From NCBI RefSeq assembly GCF_001592285.1, contig NZ_BCWQ01000005.1, positions 124,001 to 188,000 of the forward strand: a stretch of 64,000 bases of DNA, read 5' to 3'. This DNA comes from Hydrogenophaga pseudoflava NBRC 102511. Its GTDB lineage: Bacteria > Pseudomonadota > Gammaproteobacteria > Burkholderiales > Burkholderiaceae_C. Each line of letters begins with the position of its first letter. The stretch's first letter is position 1. Both the position numbers and the translations under genes were made by a program. This document shows positions 17,318 through 25,794 of the stretch, piece by piece. The notes below the pieces were generated by a model. It worked only from the letters and a program-made list of their open reading frames with translations. It was not told the DNA's origin and searched no databases.

Positions 17318-17572
17318 TCAGCTCAGCGACGCGATCAGGTCGATGTACTGCTGCTGCGCATCGTCCTGAGACGTGCCCTTCAGGCCGTTCCAGGCGTCCC
17401 ACTTGGCGCGGCCGACCATGTCACCGAAGCCGGGCTTCTTCTCGGTGTTGTCGCCCACCGTGCCCTGCTTGTACAGGCCGTAGATCTTGAGCAGCGTGGC
17501 GTTGTCGGGGCGCTCGCTGAGGTTCTTGGACTGGGCAACGGCGGCATCGAAGCGGGACTTGAGGTCGGACAT
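17318..17572 (-). CDS. Acyl-CoA-binding protein
   Basis: 84 residues, the standard ACBP length for the four-helix fold. The conserved ligand residues are visible: Tyr31 and the YKQ motif (Tyr34-Lys35-Gln36), then Lys57-Trp58 in RAKWDAWNGL. It binds long-chain acyl-CoA esters in the cytosol and can supply them to acyltransferases and reductases. It is divergent from the wax ester synthase gene (139-bp gap), a suggestive placement because that enzyme consumes acyl-CoA. Confidence 0.93.
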   Translation of the reverse strand: MSDLKSRFDAAVAQSKNLSERPDNATLLKIYGLYKQGTVGDNTEKKPGFGDMVGRAKWDAWNGLKGTSQDDAQQQYIDLIASLS

Positions 17573-17711
17573 GAAGGTCTCCGTGAGTGAGGGGGTGGCC
17601 CGGACCCGGGCTAGGGGAGGCCCGGTATCTTACGGTTGCGACTGCCCCCAGAATAGACGCCGCCACCCAATCACAACCAGCCCCCAACCCCGGGGCCTCG
17701 CAGGAGACACC

Positions 17712-19238
17712 ATGGTCACGCGCATCCGCAAAGGCACGCCGAAATCCCCACCCGAGGGCCGCAGCACCCTGCAGTCGGTGGCCGGCGTCCTGGGCCTGGA
17801 GGGCGAGCGCATGAGCAAGGTGGACACCGCCTGGCTGCGCATGGACTCGGACACCAACCTGATGATGATCGTGGGCGTCTGGATCCTGCGACCCGGCATC
17901 ACGCGCGAGGCGCTGGCTCAGCGGGTGCAGGACAAGCTGCTGGGCTACCGGCGCTTCCGGCAGACCGCCCAGCAGGACGCCGCCGGCGCCCACTGGCGCG
18001 ACGACCCCGACTTCTCGCTCGACCGCCATGTGGTCACGCACACGCTGACCCGCCGCCGCGGTCAGGAAGCCCAGGCGGCGCTGCAGGCGCGCGCCGGCGC
18101 GCTGGCCATGGTGCCGCTGGACCCGGCGCACCCGCTGTGGCAGTTCGAGCTGATCGAGGACTACGAGGGTGGTTCGGCGCTGATCGCGCGCATCCACCAC
18201 TGCATCGCCGACGGGATCGCGCTGATCAGCGTGATGATGAGCCTGGTCGATGGCGGCACCGAACCGCCCAAGCGAAAGCCCCGGTCGCACAAACAGGGGC
18301 TGGAGGCGGCCGAGGACTGGGTGGCCGACACGCTGATCCGCCCCTTCGGTGACATCGCCGCACGGGCGCTGGACGCCGCCGGTGGCGGGGCGGCGAAGTC
18401 GCTGTCGATGCTGGCGGCGCCGCAGCAAGGGCTCGGGGAAACACTGGACCAGGCCCTGGAGGTGGCGCGCCTCGGAGGCCAGCTCGCCAGCGATCTGGCG
18501 GCACTGGCCCTCATGCCCGACGACTCACCCACGCGGCTCAAGGGCGCACCCAAGGGTGAAAAGCGAGTGGCCTGGTGCCAGCCCATCCCGCTGACCGAGG
18601 TCAAGGCCATCGGCAAGGCGCTCAACTGCTCGGTCAACGACGTGCTGCTCAGCTGCGTGGCGGGCGCGATCGCCGGCTACCTGCGCCACCATGGCGACGA
18701 CCCGGCAGGCAAGGAGATCCGCGCCATGGTGCCGATCAACCTGCGGCCGATGGAGGACGCCTGGAAGCTGGGCAACCGCTTCGGCCTGATCCCGCTGGTG
18801 CTGCCCGTGGGCATCGCCAACCCGATCGAGCGCGTGTACGCGGTGCGCGCGCGCATGAACGCGCTCAAGGGCAGTCTGCAGCCGCTGCTGACCTTCGGCC
18901 TGCTGTCGGTAGCGGGCCTGCTGATCAAGCCGGCGCAGGACGCGATGCTCAGCCTGTTCGGCCGCAAGACCACCGCCGTGATGACCAATGTGCCCGGTCC
19001 CGGCGAGAAGCTGAAGTTCTGCGGCGCAACCCTGGAGCAGACCATGTTCTGGGTGCCGCAGACCGGCACGGTGGGCCTGGGCGTCTCCATCCTGAGCTAC
19101 GGCGGCGGCGTGCAGTTCGGCGTGATCGCCGACAGCGCGCTCTGCCCCGACCCGCAGCGCATCATCGACGCCTTCGAACCGGAATTTGCGCAACTGCTCG
19201 CCGTCACACTCATGCTCCCCTGGGGAGAGGTGGAGTGA
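17712..19238 (+). CDS. Wax ester synthase/diacylglycerol acyltransferase (WS/DGAT)
   Basis: 508 residues. Transfers acyl groups from acyl-CoA to fatty alcohols or diacylglycerol at the inner membrane. The catalytic HHxxxDG motif is intact as HHCIADG at 162-168, the PLW motif is at 141-143, and the C-terminal DUF1298-like domain (about 360-505) includes VMTNVPGPGEKL. An ATG after CAGGAG at 17712 is used; residues 1-33 are an extension before MSKVDTAWLRMDS, where a shorter start is possible. ACBP lies upstream on the other strand and an acyl-CoA reductase that makes the alcohol is at 5.3 kb. Confidence 0.94.
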   Translation: MVTRIRKGTPKSPPEGRSTLQSVAGVLGLEGERMSKVDTAWLRMDSDTNLMMIVGVWILRPGITREALAQRVQDKLLGYRRFRQTAQQDAAGAHWRDDPDFSLDRHVVTHTLTRRRGQEAQAALQARAGALAMVPLDPAHPLWQFELIEDYEGGSALIARIHHCIADGIALISVMMSLVDGGTEPPKRKPRSHKQGLEAAEDWVADTLIRPFGDIAARALDAAGGGAAKSLSMLAAPQQGLGETLDQALEVARLGGQLASDLAALALMPDDSPTRLKGAPKGEKRVAWCQPIPLTEVKAIGKALNCSVNDVLLSCVAGAIAGYLRHHGDDPAGKEIRAMVPINLRPMEDAWKLGNRFGLIPLVLPVGIANPIERVYAVRARMNALKGSLQPLLTFGLLSVAGLLIKPAQDAMLSLFGRKTTAVMTNVPGPGEKLKFCGATLEQTMFWVPQTGTVGLGVSILSYGGGVQFGVIADSALCPDPQRIIDAFEPEFAQLLAVTLMLPWGEVE

Positions 19239-19372: not shown

Positions 19373-20130
19373 AATCGCCTGTCTGCGATTTCGAGCAGGC
19401 CGTCGAAAATGAGGCTGTCCACCAGCTCGCAGGGCGTGGACATGCTGGGCGCCATCTTCCAGCCCGCGCCGCCGGTCATGTAGCAGACCGGGTCTTCGCC
19501 GCAATGGCCGCGCAGGTTGTCCCACATGCGCTGCACCGCACCGGCAATGGCGAAGGTGCCGCCGCTGGTGAGGGCGTCGCTGGTGTTGGTCGGGAAGTCG
19601 CGCACCTCGCCGGTGGGCACGTGCAGCCCGGCGGTGCCGGACTCCAGCGCGCGCAGCATGATGCCGTGGCCGGGCAGGATGATGCCGCCCAGGAAGCGGC
19701 CGGCCGAATCGATCGCCTCGACCGTCACCGCGGTACCGACCATGACCACGATGCAAGGCCTGGCCGGCCCCTTCTGCAGCAGGCGCTGGCGCGCGCCGAT
19801 CATCGCAACCCAGCGGTCGGAACCGAGGCGGGCCGGGTGGTCGTAGCCGTTGCTCAGACCCGCCTCCGACGCGCTGGACACCACCCACTGGGGCGTCACG
19901 TCCCACTGTTCGAGCTGTTCCTCGACCCGCCGCTTCACAGCGTCGCCCGCCACGATGCAGCCCAGCACCCGGGTGGGTGCGGACAGGCTGCTCCAGTCGC
20001 CCTCGGCCAGTTTCTCGATGTTCTCCAGGAACTGTGCACCATGCGCCAGCAGGCGCCCTCCCACACGGGGGGCGTCGTACAGCGCCCATTTCAATCGCGT
20101 GTTGCCAACATCCAGCGCCAGTAAAGTCAT
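19354..20130 (-). CDS. coaX: Type III pantothenate kinase
   Basis: 258 residues. First step of coenzyme A synthesis; the CoaX type uses ATP and a monovalent cation and is not feedback-inhibited by CoA. The ASKHA-fold phosphate-1 motif DVGNTRLKW is at 6-14, the GSDRW substrate motif at about 103-107, and the [11 protein letters not shown] phosphate-2 region near 128-138. The ATG at 20130 (MTLLALD) is preferred over an upstream one that adds six residues. Its usual partner birA is not next to it. The extreme C-terminus is encoded within repeat copy D. Confidence 0.94.
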
Positions 20131-20202
20131 GCGGAAGATTATGAACAAGGCCTGGCAGGCACTTTGCGGCGATGCAGCATCCTCATCGCGACCTCACCGG
20201 CG

Positions 20203-20874
20203 TCAGATCAACCCGATCCAGCAGGCCCGTTGCACCGCAGAGAGCTTGTTGTCGGTCTTGAGTTTGGCCATGGCATTGGCCAGGTGGTAGTTGACGGTGC
20301 GCTCCGAGCAGTCCATGCGCTGCGCGGTTTCGCGCGCGGTCAGGCCTTCGAAGGCGTAGTTCAGGCTCTCCTGCTCGCGGGGGCTGAGCGTGACCCGCTG
20401 CTCGGCGATGGCGCGGCGCAGCATCGGCCAGATGTTGTAGGCCGACCAGGCCAGGGCCGCGGCCTCGGAGCGGTCCGCGAAGGCCCGGGGGCTGAACATG
20501 AAGCACTCGAACGCGCGCCCCGCCGGCAGGCTGAAGGCCACCCGCACCAGGGTCTGGTGCCCGTGGGCCAGCCAGAGCCTGCGCCAGCGGCTGGACGGCT
20601 CGGCATAGGCCGCCTTGGAAATGTCCTGCCAGGCCACCAGGGGTGCATCGCTGTCGCGCCAGCTGGCGCCAAAGTCGGTGCTGGCGGCCAGGGCCTCCGC
20701 GGCACCGAGCAGGCGCGGCGGATGCACGGCCAGCACCTCGCGCTCGTCCCGCCCCCCCATCGGATTGGGCCCCATCACCAGCACCGCCTCGACCCCGGAG
20801 TCGCGCAAGGCGCGAACCCAATCGGCCAAAATGGCGTCCACGCCCACGCTGTCAAAGTTGACAGGAAGGGTCAT
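20203..20874 (-). CDS. LuxR-family transcriptional regulator of the cqs-like cluster
   Basis: 223 residues. The C-terminal GerE/LuxR HTH (about 155-215) is clear: LSPREQESLNYAFEGLTARE, then QRMDCSERTVNYHLANAMAK. The N-terminal about 145 residues have the size of an autoinducer-binding domain, but I cannot find the usual Trp/Tyr/Asp signature for acyl-homoserine lactones. It may bind another ligand or none. No luxI is nearby, so it is a LuxR solo. It is divergent from the CqsS-like kinase with 87 bp between starts and is the likely DNA-binding output, or a parallel input, of that signalling cluster. Start chosen at MTLPVNFDSVG; a much longer open frame upstream is antisense to the kinase. Confidence 0.84.
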   Translation of the reverse strand: MTLPVNFDSVGVDAILADWVRALRDSGVEAVLVMGPNPMGGRDEREVLAVHPPRLLGAAEALAASTDFGASWRDSDAPLVAWQDISKAAYAEPSSRWRRLWLAHGHQTLVRVAFSLPAGRAFECFMFSPRAFADRSEAAALAWSAYNIWPMLRRAIAEQRVTLSPREQESLNYAFEGLTARETAQRMDCSERTVNYHLANAMAKLKTDNKLSAVQRACWIGLI

Positions 20875-20878
20875 GACG

Positions 20879-20938
20879 GGCAACGCCCCGTTGCCGGGAC
20901 AATGGACCCGCCCGCCACAAGACCACGGGCTGGCAACG
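20879..20938. promoter_or_regulatory. GGCAACG dyad and half-site in the luxR/cqsS divergent region
   Basis: GGCAACGCCCCGTTGCC at 20879-20895 is a perfect 7-3-7 inverted repeat; a further GGCAACG half-site lies at 20932-20938. The dyad begins four bases upstream of the luxR ATG, so it could be a LuxR-type operator or, as RNA, a hairpin over the luxR ribosome-binding region. Seen directly; role inferred. Confidence 0.45.
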
Positions 20939-20961
20939 TCGGTCGACGCTGGAAGGAATAC

Positions 20962-22296
20962 ATGTTGCAGTGGGACCGTCTCAGGGTTCACAACGCCAGG
21001 CTGAGGTTCTGGCGCTGGGTGGTGGACGAAATTGTCCATGCACCTCTGGAGCCTATTTTGCATCCTTCGACGGCCCGCCTCCAGTGGCTGGGCGTCTTCA
21101 CCTTCGGCGGCCACTTCATCTTCGGGTGGCTGTGGGGCCAGGCCCTGCCGCAGCCCTACGAGCTGTTTGCGGTGCGCGTGGTGCTGGCCCTGACGGGGCT
21201 GCTGCTGCTGCATCCGCGCGTGAACCGGGACCTGCAGTCCAAGACCAGCGTCTGGGTGTACGGGCTGATCTTCTGGCTGCAGCTGCCGCTGTTCTTCGGA
21301 TGGATGTTCCTGATGAACGAGGGCAACAAGGTCTGGCTGGCCAGTGTGTGCAGCATGATCCTGATCTATTTCCACATCACCGACTGGCGCCTGGCCTCGC
21401 TGGGCTGCATCACCGGGTTCGCAGTCGCCGCGGGCCTGTTCCTGCTCACCGGCACGCAGCAGACCTGGGTCGGCATCGAGCCCGAGAACCTCACCCTGAT
21501 CGGCTTTGCCCTGGGCATGAGCCTGATGCTGGGCATGTCGGGCGCCAACCTGCGCCGGGTCCGGCTGATCAACACGCTCAGCACCATGGGCGTGATGGCG
21601 CACGAACTGCGCACGCCACTGGCCACGGTGAACCTGGTCGGCGACGTGCTGCGTGGCCTGGCCCAGCACGACGTGCCCGAACCCAAGCGCAAGAAGCTGG
21701 AGGAGCTGGCGCAGCGGCTGCAGAACCTGGTGCGCAGCATGAACCGGCAGATCGACACCCAGATCTCCAACGCGCAGCTGCTGAGGCTGCCCCGGCCCAC
21801 CGCCCATCTCACCGCGTTCGAACTGGTGCAGGACGTGCTCGGCCAGTACCCGTTCCGCTCACCGCGCGAGCGCGAATGCGTGCAGCTGGCGCTGGAAGAG
21901 GACTTCGGCTTCCTGGGGTCTCGTGCCCAGTTTTCACAGGTTCTGGTCAACCTGATCAAAAATGCCATGCATGCGCTGGCCGCATCCGGAGACGCCCCCA
22001 AGCCGGGCGACCTGCGCGTGGAGGTGACGGTCAAGGACGGGCTGGGCAGGATCGTGGTGACCGACAAGGGCACCGGCATTCCGCTGCAGAAACAACACCG
22101 CATCTTCGAACCCTTTTTCTCACTGCAGAGCAGTGTCGGCAACGGACTGGGGCTGACGTTCTGCAAAAACGTGGTGGAGGCGTCGGACGGTCGGCTGCTC
22201 CTCCAGTCCCAACCCGGTCACGGTGCCTCGTTCACGATCGTGCTGCCCCTGCGGGACGAGCGTGCCCCCTTCATACCGCCCACGAGCACACACTGA
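20962..22296 (+). CDS. cqsS: CqsS/LqsS-like membrane sensor histidine kinase
   Basis: 444 residues. About six hydrophobic segments (roughly 41-57, 68-84, 97-118, 124-142, 146-164, 176-193) precede the kinase core. LPLFFGWMFLMNEGNKVW (108-125) resembles the matching region I recall in Vibrio CqsS, receptor for the alpha-hydroxyketone CAI-1. The H box is MAHELRTPL (His214), the N box has Asn334, and the ATP-site motifs are DKGTGI (368-373) and GNGLGL (393-398). Unlike Vibrio CqsS there is no C-terminal receiver; a separate response regulator follows after 3 bp, as in the Legionella LqsS/LqsR pattern. A strong Shine-Dalgarno (GGAAGG) supports the start. Confidence 0.86.
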   Translation: MLQWDRLRVHNARLRFWRWVVDEIVHAPLEPILHPSTARLQWLGVFTFGGHFIFGWLWGQALPQPYELFAVRVVLALTGLLLLHPRVNRDLQSKTSVWVYGLIFWLQLPLFFGWMFLMNEGNKVWLASVCSMILIYFHITDWRLASLGCITGFAVAAGLFLLTGTQQTWVGIEPENLTLIGFALGMSLMLGMSGANLRRVRLINTLSTMGVMAHELRTPLATVNLVGDVLRGLAQHDVPEPKRKKLEELAQRLQNLVRSMNRQIDTQISNAQLLRLPRPTAHLTAFELVQDVLGQYPFRSPRERECVQLALEEDFGFLGSRAQFSQVLVNLIKNAMHALAASGDAPKPGDLRVEVTVKDGLGRIVVTDKGTGIPLQKQHRIFEPFFSLQSSVGNGLGLTFCKNVVEASDGRLLLQSQPGHGASFTIVLPLRDERAPFIPPTSTH

Positions 22297-22299
22297 GCC

Positions 22300-23286
22300 A
22301 TGGCCTTCAACTTTCCGCTGTACCACCGTTCGGGAAGCCTGATCTTTCTGGACGACGACATCGACTATCTGGAGATGCTGGGCATGGTCGTGCCCAGCTT
22401 TCTGCAGGTCGAACTGTTTTCACGACCGGCGGCCTTCATCGCCCGGATGAACGACGAGCCGGCGCGCTGGGAGGCCGACGCGGGGCACCACCTGCAGATG
22501 ATCGACCGCTGGCGCCACGGCCACCATCTGCTTCCGCAGGTGCTGCGCTACTGGGGCTCCAACCCGGCGCGCTACCAGCTGGCACAAACCTGTGTGGTGG
22601 ACTTCGCCATGCCAGGCATCGATGGCCTGAAGGTGCTCGAAACCCTGGTGGACTGGCCGGGCTCGCGCATCCTGCTGACCGGGCAGGCCGATGAGCAGAT
22701 CGCGATCAAGGCCTTCAACAACGGCCTGATCGACCAGTTCATCCCCAAGCAGACGGCCGACATCGCCGGGCGCCTGATGACCACCCTTATCAAGCTGGCC
22801 CGGCGCGCCCATCCGCGGCTGAACACCGTCTGGCGCACGGCCATGCAGTCCCACCACCAGGCCCTGCTGGAAGTGCCATCCATCATGGAGGCGCTGCTGA
22901 CCCGGGCCCGCTCGCACTGGATCGAGTACGTCGTGCTCGATGAACCCTTTGGCATGCTGGGCCTGACGCCGGAAGGCCTTTGCGAATGGCTGCAGCTGGA
23001 GCCCGCCTCCGGCCTGAAGGACGTGGCCGATCTGGCCCGGTCGGCGGGACTGGGGTTCGACGTCGTGCAGGCCATCCAGAAGGGGCTGCTGCTTCCGGCG
23101 GTCGAGCTGCACCAGCAGCTGGGCCTGCGCGGGCCGATCCGGACCGAAAAGGCCTTTGCGGTGGGCGACGACGGACAGCTCATCGGCGCCCTGTTCCCGC
23201 TGGCGGAGACCGACCTGCCGCTGCCGATCTACCCGTACCGCAACTTCCTGGACATGCAGGGCGTGCGGACCATTCAGGACAGCTGA
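22300..23286 (+). CDS. LqsR-like response regulator with an enlarged receiver
   Basis: 328 residues. The receiver begins SLIFLDDDIDYLEML (acidic residues at 18-20), but the phospho-acceptor sits unusually late, at Asp101 in CVVDFAMPGIDGL, because about 45-50 extra residues lie between. Thr127 (ILLTGQADE) and Lys150 (FIPKQ) complete the site. I recall a comparably late Asp in Legionella LqsR. The C-terminal about 170 residues show no HTH I recognise and may be a non-DNA-binding output. It starts 3 bp after the CqsS-like kinase and ends overlapping the convergent cqsA gene by 13 bp. Partner of that kinase with good confidence; output mechanism unknown. Confidence 0.82.
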   Translation: MAFNFPLYHRSGSLIFLDDDIDYLEMLGMVVPSFLQVELFSRPAAFIARMNDEPARWEADAGHHLQMIDRWRHGHHLLPQVLRYWGSNPARYQLAQTCVVDFAMPGIDGLKVLETLVDWPGSRILLTGQADEQIAIKAFNNGLIDQFIPKQTADIAGRLMTTLIKLARRAHPRLNTVWRTAMQSHHQALLEVPSIMEALLTRARSHWIEYVVLDEPFGMLGLTPEGLCEWLQLEPASGLKDVADLARSAGLGFDVVQAIQKGLLLPAVELHQQLGLRGPIRTEKAFAVGDDGQLIGALFPLAETDLPLPIYPYRNFLDMQGVRTIQDS

Positions 23287-24518
23287 GCACCACCGCGCTG
23301 GCGGCGGGCGGCCGCCCATTCCCAGGGCCGGACCCGGTCGGCGACCAGGCGCGCAGCCGACTCGACGTGTTCGAGCTCCGCCTCGGTCAGCGCCGAGTGC
23401 AGGGTCATCCGTGCCAGGGACCGGTTGCGGCTGGTGGCCGGTGCACCAAAGAACGCGGTGTGCACCCCCAGCGCATCCAGCTCGTCGCGCACCTGGATGG
23501 TGGCGGGCTCCGGCCCCGCTTCGAGCGCGATGATCTGCTCGGTGCCCTGGTCGATCGGATACCCCATACCGGTCAGCGCGCTGCGGATGCGCCGGGTCAC
23601 CAGCCGCAGGTTCTCGCGCGCGGCGTCGGCCTGCTGCAGCACGTCCACCGTGGCCGCCAGGCCGGCCGCTTCGTGCGGCAACACGCAGGAGCTGAAGATG
23701 TTGGGGAAGCTGGAGGTGAGGATGTGGTAGCGCAGGCGGTCCGGCGCGGTGAAGAAGCCGGCCCGCCCCGCCATGGCCTTGGCCAGGCTCGCGGAGATGA
23801 AATGCACCCGGTCCGTCACCCCCAGCTGGGCGCACAGGCCGGCGCCCGATGGACCGTGGGTGCCCAGCGAGTGCGACTCGTCGACCAGGATCATCGAGCC
23901 GTGCCGCTCCACCACGTCGAGCATCTCCAGCAGCGGGCACACCGCGCCGGTGGTGCTGTAGACCGAGTCCACCGCCACCAGTCCCGGGCCGTGCCGGCTC
24001 ATGAGCTTGTCCAGGTGCTGGGGGTCGTTGTGCCGGAACACCTGCGAGGGTGCGCGGGCCGCGTGGGCACCTTCCCACAGCGAGGCGTGGGCCTGCCCGT
24101 CCAGGTACACCGGCGTCTCCGGATTGGCCACCGACTGGATCAGGCCGACATTGGCCGCGTAGCCGGACTGGCACACGAACCCGTCCTCCTTGCCCACCCA
24201 GCGCGCGAGCTTCAGTTCGAGGTTGCGGGTCGGGTGTTCGTCGTGCATGAACACCCCGGACTGCACGGCGAAACTGCCGCTGCGGGTCAGCGCCTCCACC
24301 TGGGCCCGCACGATGTCCGGATGGCCAGACACCGACAGGTAGTCGTTGCCGTCCAGGCGCACCGAGTTGGGGCCGGGGCGTGCGCCCTGCACCGCAAATC
24401 GACCCTGCCACAGGTCGTTCCAGCGGGGCACGAAATCCTTCTGGATCCGCGCCTCCAGCGCGGCCGTCAGGCGGGGAGAAGGACGTTGCGCTTCAAGGGT
24501 GTGGTCCAGCAGTTCCAT
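23274..24518 (-). CDS. cqsA: CqsA-type alpha-hydroxyketone autoinducer synthase
   Basis: 414 residues; PLP enzyme of the alpha-oxoamine synthase fold that condenses an acyl-CoA with an amino-acid-derived donor to make CAI-1-like signals. Segments such as QSGYAANVGLIQ, HASLWEGA, RHGPGLVAVDSVYST and VDESHSLGTHGPSGAGL look very close to Vibrio CqsA as I recall it, clearly closer than to BioF or Kbl. PLP-site residues are Asp213-Glu214-Ser-His216 and Lys247 in SASLAKA. The Shine-Dalgarno CAGGAG is four bases from the ATG. It converges on the response-regulator gene, closing a synthase-receptor-regulator cluster. Confidence 0.92.
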   Translation of the reverse strand: MELLDHTLEAQRPSPRLTAALEARIQKDFVPRWNDLWQGRFAVQGARPGPNSVRLDGNDYLSVSGHPDIVRAQVEALTRSGSFAVQSGVFMHDEHPTRNLELKLARWVGKEDGFVCQSGYAANVGLIQSVANPETPVYLDGQAHASLWEGAHAARAPSQVFRHNDPQHLDKLMSRHGPGLVAVDSVYSTTGAVCPLLEMLDVVERHGSMILVDESHSLGTHGPSGAGLCAQLGVTDRVHFISASLAKAMAGRAGFFTAPDRLRYHILTSSFPNIFSSCVLPHEAAGLAATVDVLQQADAARENLRLVTRRIRSALTGMGYPIDQGTEQIIALEAGPEPATIQVRDELDALGVHTAFFGAPATSRNRSLARMTLHSALTEAELEHVESAARLVADRVRPWEWAAARRQRGGAQLS

Positions 24519-24575
24519 GGGGTGCTCCTGTTAAAGAAGAACCCATTGAAAAAACTTGTAGGATGAAAATCGCCC

Positions 24576-24584
24576 CCTCCCTGT
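24576..24584 (-). promoter_or_regulatory. CsrA-like site in the cqsA leader
   Basis: Read on the minus strand this is ACAGGGAGG, matching the CsrA/RsmA consensus ACAnGGAnG, about 58 nt upstream of the cqsA start. A second GGA lies in the Shine-Dalgarno (ACAGGAG, ending at 24525). Post-transcriptional control of lqsA by CsrA-type systems is known in Legionella; here it is only a sequence match. Confidence 0.3.
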
Positions 24585-24631
24585 CAGCATTAGCAGGGGT
24601 GGTTACGCTTTCTTCTCAAGTCTGACGCTGT

Positions 24632-24642
24632 TTATCCGATAA
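24632..24642. promoter_or_regulatory. TTATC-C-GATAA palindrome upstream of cqsA
   Basis: A perfect 11-bp palindrome in the 160-bp gap between cqsA and the persulfide dioxygenase gene, about 115 bp upstream of the cqsA start. It could be an operator for the cqsA promoter. No binder is suggested by the sequence. Confidence 0.3.
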
Positions 24643-24678
24643 GCGGCGCGCCAGCGGATGGCAGCGGTCTCTCTGCTC

Positions 24679-25794
24679 TCAGTTCTGGCGCCAGGGCAGC
24701 CCGTGGTACCGCCAGCCGCCCTTGCGCCCGCGCTGGCCGTGGCCATCGGGATCACCCTCGAAGCCTTCGAGGATGTTGTAGGCCTCCAGGCCCAGTTCCG
24801 TGGCACGCCGCGCGGCCGCGACCGAGCGCACACCGCTGCGGCACAGCAGCACCAGCTTGCGTCCGCCGTCGGCGGCGGCGCGCACCGCCTCGTCGAACCC
24901 GGTGTTCATGGCCATGCCCGGCCACTGCTTCCAGGCCACCGGCAGCGCGCCGGGCACAAAGCCCACCCATTCGCGCTCGGCGTCGGTGCGCACATCCACC
25001 AGCACCGCCTCGCCCTGCTGCACCCACTGCCAGGCCAGCTGGGGCGACACATCGCCCGCGTAGCCGCCCTGCCCGGTGCGCGGCTGCATCAGCTGCACCC
25101 CGTCGGCGTCGTGGCGCAGCCCGGACGTGAGGTTGGCCGGCACGGCTTCGTCGATGCGGCGCGGCCGGGGCAGGTTCAGGCTGTCCATGATGGCCACGAA
25201 TTCGGCCTCGGTCTTGCCGGCCACGCGCGGGTTGCTGGTCTTCTCGTCGCCGATGGTGGACGAGGTGCGGCCCTGGTAGTCGTGCCCGGGCCATACGGTG
25301 GTGTCATCGGGCAGCGCAAACAGCACTTGTGTGAGGCTGCGGTAGAGGTCGACCGCGCTGCCCGACTGGAAATCGGTGCGGCCACAGCCGCCGATCAGCA
25401 GCGCGTCGCCGGTGAACACATGGTCGCGCCAGAGGTAGCTCATGCTGCCGGCCGTGTGGCCCGGCGTGTGCAGGGCGCGCAGGCGCTCGGCACCGAACTC
25501 AAGCTCGTCGCCATCCTGCAGCTGCCGGCCCGCCGTGCCGATGCCGCAGCCCGCCGGCGCCGCCGTCCTGGCGCCCGCCAGCTCGGCCAGCTTGCCGGCG
25601 CTGGTGATGTGGTCGGCATGGGCATGGGTCTCCAGGGTCCAGACCAGGCGCAACCCGTATTCGCGCAGCACCGCCAGGTCGCGCTCGATCTGCTCGTCCA
25701 CCGGGTCGATGATCACCGCCTCGCGCGTGGCCTGGTCGAACAGCAGGTAGGTGTAGGTGCTAGACGCCGGGTCGAACAGCTGGATGGGTTTCAT
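24679..25794 (-). CDS. Persulfide dioxygenase-rhodanese fusion (ETHE1-like)
   Basis: 371 residues. The N-terminal metallo-beta-lactamase domain (about 1-235) has HAHADH (57-62), His113, Asp130 and His171, the ETHE1-type mononuclear iron set for oxidising glutathione persulfide to sulfite. The C-terminal rhodanese domain (about 250-365) has active Cys318 in the loop CRSGVRS. Fusions of this order are known as PRF enzymes in Burkholderia and as CstB-like proteins; they handle sulfane sulfur from H2S oxidation. The ATG at 25794 is used; a longer open frame runs through the regulator gene and is not coding. A CsoR-family regulator lies 23 bp upstream on the same strand. Confidence 0.9.
   Translation of the reverse strand: MKPIQLFDPASSTYTYLLFDQATREAVIIDPVDEQIERDLAVLREYGLRLVWTLETHAHADHITSAGKLAELAGARTAAPAGCGIGTAGRQLQDGDELEFGAERLRALHTPGHTAGSMSYLWRDHVFTGDALLIGGCGRTDFQSGSAVDLYRSLTQVLFALPDDTTVWPGHDYQGRTSSTIGDEKTSNPRVAGKTEAEFVAIMDSLNLPRPRRIDEAVPANLTSGLRHDADGVQLMQPRTGQGGYAGDVSPQLAWQWVQQGEAVLVDVRTDAEREWVGFVPGALPVAWKQWPGMAMNTGFDEAVRAAADGGRKLVLLCRSGVRSVAAARRATELGLEAYNILEGFEGDPDGHGQRGRKGGWRYHGLPWRQN

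Follow-up and report, generated by a model that had tools for sequence, protein, structure and literature searches.

A predicted alpha-hydroxyketone quorum-sensing cluster in Hydrogenophaga pseudoflava with a LuxR-type regulator probably wired to its synthase gene

A 64,000 nucleotide stretch of Hydrogenophaga pseudoflava NBRC 102511 (contig NZ_BCWQ01000005.1, positions 124,001 to 188,000; the window) carries four genes that probably form an Lqs/Jqs-type alpha-hydroxyketone quorum-sensing cluster with a LuxR-type transcription factor of its own, which would regulate the synthase gene cqsA as well as itself and would work with the LqsR-type response regulator. The span from the luxR stop to the cqsA start is exactly 20203..24518, and all four reading frames exist as an initial annotation had placed them, with the regulator gene 3 bp beyond the kinase gene; the 3' ends of cqsA and the regulator gene overlap by 13 bp. 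The features are as follows.

20203..20874, minus strand: LuxR-type transcription factor, 223 amino acids, with an acyl-homoserine lactone (AHL)-receptor-like N-domain and a GerE helix-turn-helix (Pfam, fold match)
20848..20865, minus strand: lux box in the luxR frame, codons 4-9, 13/14 core bases, putative autoregulatory operator
20899..20903, minus strand: tentative luxR -10-like element (ACAAT on the plus strand, ATTGT on the minus strand), presumed function
20962..22296, plus strand: CqsS/LqsS/JqsS-type sensor histidine kinase, 444 amino acids (HATPase_c, sensor-domain profile)
22300..23286, plus strand: LqsR-type response regulator, 328 amino acids (profile and fold match to 6sy9)
23274..24518, minus strand: CqsA/LqsA-type alpha-hydroxyketone synthase, 414 amino acids (NF005526, PDB alignment, tree)
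24516..24550, minus strand: cqsA leader with conserved TTCAAT and a predicted hairpin pairing with the Shine-Dalgarno/start region (covariation tests)
24580..24597, minus strand: lux box upstream of cqsA, CCTGCTAATGCTGACAGG, 12/14 core bases, 47 bp 5' of TTCAAT

The synthase scored 505.7 bits against NCBIfam NF005526 ('alpha-hydroxyketone-type quorum-sensing autoinducer synthase'; cut-off 428), its best PDB matches were Vibrio cholerae CqsA (E 4e-88, 3hqt/2wk8 alignment), and its K247, within ASLAK, aligned to the ASLAK lysine of that enzyme. In a quick tree without bootstrap, built from 16 rows of the taxonomic family of the window, 13 other CqsA rows (including L071 and L072, which are aberrant genes from that same family) and 8 rows of BioF/Kbl-like proteins, it fell within the family clade (SH-like approximate likelihood ratio test, SH-aLRT, 100), and the eight paralogues, which we label BioF/Kbl-like and which are individually unannotated rows below the cut-off, were split off by a branch with an SH-aLRT of 98. 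The synthase hence lies outside BioF/Kbl as far as this tree goes, in agreement with its initial description as CqsA-like. On the strength of its family we infer that it makes an alpha-hydroxyketone signal, and the identity and chemistry of that signal are likewise read from the family.

The kinase matched HATPase_c, with HisKA just below the cut-off (26.8 against 26.9 bits), and the domain profile scan gave no match to a receiver domain. A profile of its residues 1-203 matched kinases in 14 of 16 CqsA loci from other families (E 1e-17 to 1e-26), the other two loci lying on short contigs, whilst the best match in control loci was 2.8e-4, except in L134 (1.8e-42), which was found to hold a family kinase. 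By this comparison, in which the reference set consisted of kinases at CqsA loci and not of named CqsS or LqsS sequences, the predicted membrane domain is homologous to that of CqsA-linked kinases in other families, as expected of the CqsS-like membrane region claimed at the outset. For the regulator, described initially as LqsR-like, 6sy9 ('Legionella pneumophila response regulator LqsR') was the top match both by profile against PDB (E 2e-34, positions 3-283) and by fold (E 6.6e-18, next match 3.8e-7; model predicted local distance difference test score, pLDDT, 91.6). Residues D18, D19, D101, T127 and K150 were invariant across 18 alignment rows, four of them from loci with only LuxR and regulator, and no DNA-binding domain was matched in the domain profile scan. 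Family and gene order suggest that phosphate is passed from the kinase to this regulator. LuxR carries a GerE helix-turn-helix matched by Pfam; the autoinducer-binding domain PF03472 was not matched at E 0.001 in this protein and nothing in the whole genome exceeded its cut-off. The LuxR model (pLDDT 82.9) nevertheless resembles AHL receptors (QscR, RhlR, SdiA, TraR) over nearly its full length (207 residues against QscR, root-mean-square deviation 7.4, domains shifted), so that the predicted fold is AHL-receptor-like with an N-domain unrecognised by PF03472.

The order of the four genes, with luxR divergent from the tandem kinase and regulator genes and cqsA convergent with these, was kept in 31 of 35 fetched family loci, and also in G335, where it is split over two contigs; given this conservation, the cluster is not a chance arrangement. 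With the synthase outside BioF/Kbl in the quick tree, the kinase sensor domain shared with other CqsA loci and the cluster widely kept, none of the outcomes named at the outset as speaking against the initial annotation was observed. All four genes were present in 70 of 80 named loci, a scan that was seeded with LuxR, so that clusters lacking LuxR are uncountable in it, and in which several loci come from the same genomes as the 35. Three more named loci had CqsA cut by a contig end and two were otherwise cut, L186, L196 and L203 were without CqsA (judged at the locus only), L201 had LuxR and regulator only, and L210 was without a kinase and too short to judge CqsA. The closest named luxR loci are those of Hydrogenophaga flava and H. 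pseudoflava, which bears out the initial placement in a probable Comamonadaceae.

What ties LuxR to the synthase gene is a lux box with the consensus CCTGTCA-N4-TGACAGG. Of 103 regions upstream of cqsA, 80 contained the dyad CCTGT-N8-ACAGG, whereas none of 20 shuffles gave more than 3. A box scoring at least 12/14 was found upstream of 88/91 distinct LuxR-linked cqsA genes and 1/18 LuxR-less ones (before deduplication, in 93 of 96 LuxR-linked regions and in L073, whose LuxR lies on another contig), and mononucleotide shuffles of the cqsA regions reached 12/14 once in 1150. Only two sites in the whole 64-kb window reach this score, namely the cqsA box and the box inside luxR. Distinct TTCAAT..ATG leaders carried the box in 78 of 80 cases, 73 of these 78 at 47-48 bp from TTCAAT, which places the box centre some 42 bp away from the first base of the hairpin. 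Class II LuxR promoters follow a -42.5 rule. The near-fixed spacing is suggestive of class II (-42.5-like) activation of the kind seen at luxI promoters, and the geometry of the cqsA box would be that of a class II LuxR promoter provided that transcription starts at the first hairpin base.

The second box (at least 11/14) lies at the same offset, 9 nt from the ATG, in 118 of 122 luxR genes. Codon usage at this position is strongly restricted: Pro4 is CCT in 90/91 non-redundant rows, against 11/91 at Pro36 and 6/91 at Pro52, and Phe7 is TTT in 85/85, against 32/91 at Phe68 (Fisher p 1e-66 for Pro4 and 1e-23 for Phe7, from rows that are not independent by descent). In L109, L110 and L114 the box is kept despite a different encoded peptide. 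The synonymous constraint on codons 4-9 thus likely exists because a lux box sits there; residues 1-9 are of low confidence in the LuxR model, whilst codons 4-9 are strongly constrained in the DNA. Further upstream, 80 of the 121 gene gaps contain ACAAT at an offset of 23 or 24 relative to the luxR start. A palindrome in the luxR-kinase gap, GGCAACG-CCC-CGTTGCC, was considered as an operator and rejected: it is disrupted in both H. flava and H. pseudoflava, and none of the dyads in this gap was present in more than 7 of 120 regions.

It could be argued that LuxR is a bystander conserved by linkage and that a different LuxR-type protein binds the cqsA box, since the evidence comes from sequence and other LuxR-type proteins, which were left uncounted, may be encoded in these genomes. 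We consider this very improbable: the box tracks this particular LuxR in the proportions given above, it is also found inside this luxR, genomes without LuxR rarely contain it, and beyond the genus LuxR shows higher conservation (49-70% identity) than either the kinase (42-51%) or the regulator (38-48%). By these comparisons LuxR is not a chance neighbour of the cqsA cluster.

Between box and start codon, a TTCAAT..ATG leader was present in 87 of 105 cqsA genes (folding at -12.1 kcal/mol in the window, 12 nt of coding sequence included). Across 41 non-redundant rows, some of which fold poorly, the duplex of the 5' arm with the ribosome-site arm had a mean energy of -11.64 kcal/mol, against -7.6 when arms were swapped between rows, and none of 20000 permutations equalled it. 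A 33-row alignment was hand-picked (26 of the 41 rows, the window and 6 others) and is biased towards structure because many of the 15 excluded rows were poor folders; in it 72.9% of cells were paired against 67.5% in shuffles (0/500), both-side changes occurred in 37 cells against 24.9 (1/500), 8 of 11 pairs had a both-side change, which is not above shuffled (265/500), and sliding the alignment by one column left the covariation score nearly unchanged. No Rfam match was found in 20000-25000. RNA thermometers, such as the fourU kind, use a hairpin that opens with temperature to expose the ribosome site, a class considered for this leader. Resting on the arm-swap test and the pair counts, the call is that the leader forms a predicted hairpin which covers the ribosome site and whose arms covary.

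The distribution of the four genes was examined in a sample of 399 genomes of the family, counting LuxR as full-length at E below 1e-70 and the regulator at E 1e-20 or better. CqsA exceeded its cut-off in 36 genomes, the regulator was found in 52 and full-length LuxR in 41. Thirty-three genomes, including that of the window, have all four genes, which is to say that LuxR is in place in 33 of the 36 CqsA genomes; G093 has CqsA near a contig end with the other three genes not seen, and G129 has it in another type of cluster. Eight of the 399 (five genomes of one genus, G055, G162 and G272) retain LuxR and the regulator only, synthase and kinase being gone, with the family kinase not found in a genome-wide search, although three gave generic kinase-core matches (E 1e-31 to 1e-36). 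G279 holds a broken luxR remnant. Parsimony on a regulator tree of 65 rows, with several long branches and many weak forks, required CqsA to change 11 times, the kinase 7 times and LuxR 5 times, which, if the tree holds, points to repeated loss, most often of the synthase. At least one gene flanking the window cluster, matched by eye, lies alongside the reduced loci L108, L113, L127, L128 and L130-L133, so that the cluster genes appear to have been lost in place; L129 is elsewhere, being the second of two regulator copies in G254, off the usual site and beside genes that by eye are aromatic-ring dioxygenase-like. Outside the family, CqsA exceeded the cut-off in 16 of 399 genomes of the order, with the kinase in 14 of these loci and the regulator in 11. 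This type of LuxR was seen beside none of the 16, four of which (L100, L102, L103, L107) are too short to tell, and L105 has a helix-turn-helix-only match near CqsA.

Several observations weigh against this reading of the cluster. The cqsA box of the window is itself imperfect, with 12/14 core bases and an altered left half-site, as is that of H. flava and H. pseudoflava, and three LuxR-linked cqsA genes (L043, L046, L060) lack a box. The regulator occurs without this LuxR in six family genomes (five of genus g71, and G243), where, G070 excepted, only the locus itself was considered in calling the kinase absent; G112 has kinase and regulator without LuxR; and in G009 kinase, regulator and CqsA are present on two contigs with LuxR not detected. 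Since the regulator survives in all of these, LuxR is not essential to it. As to the leader, the ribosome-site region was paired in 80 of 87 real leaders but also in 1030 of 1740 shuffled ones, and RNAalifold predicted no consensus hairpin in the leader alignment. The last point, with the fact that the repeat could also be read as dyad symmetry in DNA, speaks for a DNA operator in place of an RNA hairpin; this is nonetheless rather unlikely, as the arm sequences differ between genera with pairing kept (no arm swap in 20000 being as good), and the ribosome-site/start region itself forms the 3' arm.

We propose that CqsA makes a signal which the membrane kinase would sense, phosphorylating the LqsR-type regulator in response. 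LuxR would bind the box at the cqsA promoter and activate cqsA, and would also bind the box in its own frame, probably limiting its own expression, with the leader hairpin adding translational control of cqsA. The regulator most likely acts jointly with LuxR, perhaps through contact, because the pair is kept in genomes lacking synthase and kinase. How LuxR is gated admits several answers. It may be ligand-independent and gated by contact with the phosphorylated regulator, a distinct possibility if short of an even chance: divergent LuxR-regulator pairs remain after synthase and kinase are lost, the regulator is present in 41 of 41 family genomes with full-length LuxR, it retains its phosphoacceptor and gave no match to a DNA-binding domain, and G070 holds a second, distant regulator-LuxR pair, whilst regulator-only genomes exist and the pairing of the genes could be explained by shared regulation. 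Alternatively, and this we entertain tentatively, LuxR could be a cytoplasmic receptor for the CqsA product (an alpha-hydroxyketone or aminoketone); positive feedback would then be direct, in the manner of LuxI/LuxR, and run in parallel with the kinase. The AHL-receptor-like fold, despite the missing PF03472 match, the luxI-like geometry of the cqsA box and the presence of CqsA in 33 of 41 family genomes with full-length LuxR fit this idea, but LuxR is kept in eight family genomes without CqsA or kinase, and would there have to respond to a foreign signal or else not be a receptor for the CqsA product. A composite, unlikely but conceivable, is that LuxR is the DNA-binding output of the regulator, gated by contact with its phosphorylated form and also reading the CqsA product, so that the synthase replaces LuxI and the LuxR-regulator pair is the core that is kept and re-used after loss of the signal genes. 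The initial suggestion that LuxR is a new output arm is sustained insofar as the arm is an addition, given the lux boxes at cqsA and in luxR and the LuxR-regulator pairs that outlive the synthase; feedback wiring to the synthase gene describes it better than a pure output role does.

Further sites were sought in 36 hand-picked genomes of the 399, allowing up to one mismatch. At least one exact site was present in 13 of the 16 genomes with all four genes and in 2 of the 8 with LuxR and regulator only, but in none of the 4 regulator-only and none of the 8 LuxR-less genomes. With one mismatch the 16 four-gene genomes gave 60 sites against 3 for a reversed control pattern, and the eight LuxR-less genomes 1 against 2. 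In G272 and G162 an exact box lies just 3' of the regulator, at the position expected of the former cqsA promoter; intact lux boxes at this place were noted at about 9290 in L115 and about 9210 in L114. Of the 76 sites, 40 lying outside the cluster were fetched (loci including L250-L289), and boxes lay near a two-partner secretion transporter gene and near a phosphonate-type binding protein gene, each in four genomes of three genera, which would make these genes a candidate LuxR regulon. PF03865 was scanned in two of these cases and PF12974 in one, the others being named by BLAST similarity, and the gene calls come from a simple codon-bias script. Boxes near NDH-2, rsmD, GH5, Usp and VanZ genes were each confined to a single genus.

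The core of the cluster is not new, because lqs clusters are already known in Betaproteobacteria (PMC10653808, PMC3376566). Synthase, kinase and LqsR-type regulator are shared with the Lqs system (LqsA/LqsS/LqsR) of Legionella pneumophila, in which hdeD sits between lqsS and lqsR (PMC3376566), whereas here kinase and regulator genes are in tandem, cqsA is convergent, and a LuxR and a lux box at cqsA are added. The same three-gene core occurs in another betaproteobacterium, Janthinobacterium (jqsA/jqsS/jqsR; PMC3566124, PMC5080296), whose regulated promoters carry TTGA-N6/7-TCAA (PMC5080296) and not the lux box seen here; among 16 other-family and 3 in-family LuxR-less loci this JAI-1 motif was found upstream of cqsA only in L106, twice, the gene start of L107 being missing. 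Vibrio CqsA/CqsS has a synthase of the common family but signals via LuxU and LuxO (PMC3376566), in contrast to the separate LqsR-type regulator and the kinase without a receiver match described here. Loss of lqs genes is described for Ralstonia and Cupriavidus, and PhcX of Ralstonia is likewise an LqsR-family regulator that outlives synthase and kinase (PMC10653808); PhcX adjoins phc genes, however, whilst the regulator described here has in most cases remained at its former site and keeps LuxR in eight genomes. According to a figure legend of the same paper, Hydrogenophaga has phc genes near lqsR. With LuxR/LuxI systems the cluster shares the LuxR fold and CCTGT-N8-ACAGG, common to the lux box ACCTGTAGGATCGTACAGGT (PMC4444344), but the synthase gene that the box precedes is here cqsA and not luxI. 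The word LuxR does not occur in the main text of PMC3566124 or PMC10653808, the jqs-cluster passages of PMC5080296 do not name its luxR solos, and the open-access literature searched yielded no description of an alpha-hydroxyketone synthase accompanied by a LuxR gene or a lux box. As far as these searches reach, the new part would be the wiring of LuxR to cqsA in an otherwise known system.

Other observations concern the surroundings of the cluster and distant relatives of its regulators. In the window the cluster is flanked by genes for pantothenate kinase and an MBL-rhodanese protein (Pfam names) and by a gene we read as amidase-like, and at 17318-19238, upstream of the cluster, a wax ester synthase/DGAT-like gene adjoins an acyl-CoA-binding protein gene. 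G132 and G035 have a sequence-divergent regulator beside an AHL-synthase-like gene. In L135 (6673-9690) and L136 (7106-10139) an LqsR-like regulator (31-33% identity) directly follows an AHL-synthase-like gene (NCBIfam TraI-type, below the curated cut-off), with a divergent LuxR; its receiver acidic pair is apparently lost, by eye, giving an LqsR-family protein in an AHL locus. In L116 (7383-9146), from the regulator-only genome G070, remote relatives of the regulator (29%) and of LuxR (31%) lie on one strand with about 19 bp between them; neither CqsA nor the kinase was matched within the fetched 15 kb.

According to PMC10653808, how PhcX and LqsR act has yet to be worked out. Here, in environmental bacteria, the same locus brings with it a transcription factor, the operator sequence predicted for it and a small set of predicted target genes, so that the question of LqsR-type output becomes directly testable. 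If our reading is correct, a single promoter would join two quorum-sensing logics, that of LuxR with its lux box and that of the ketone with its kinase, and stepwise loss would leave receivers lacking a synthase.

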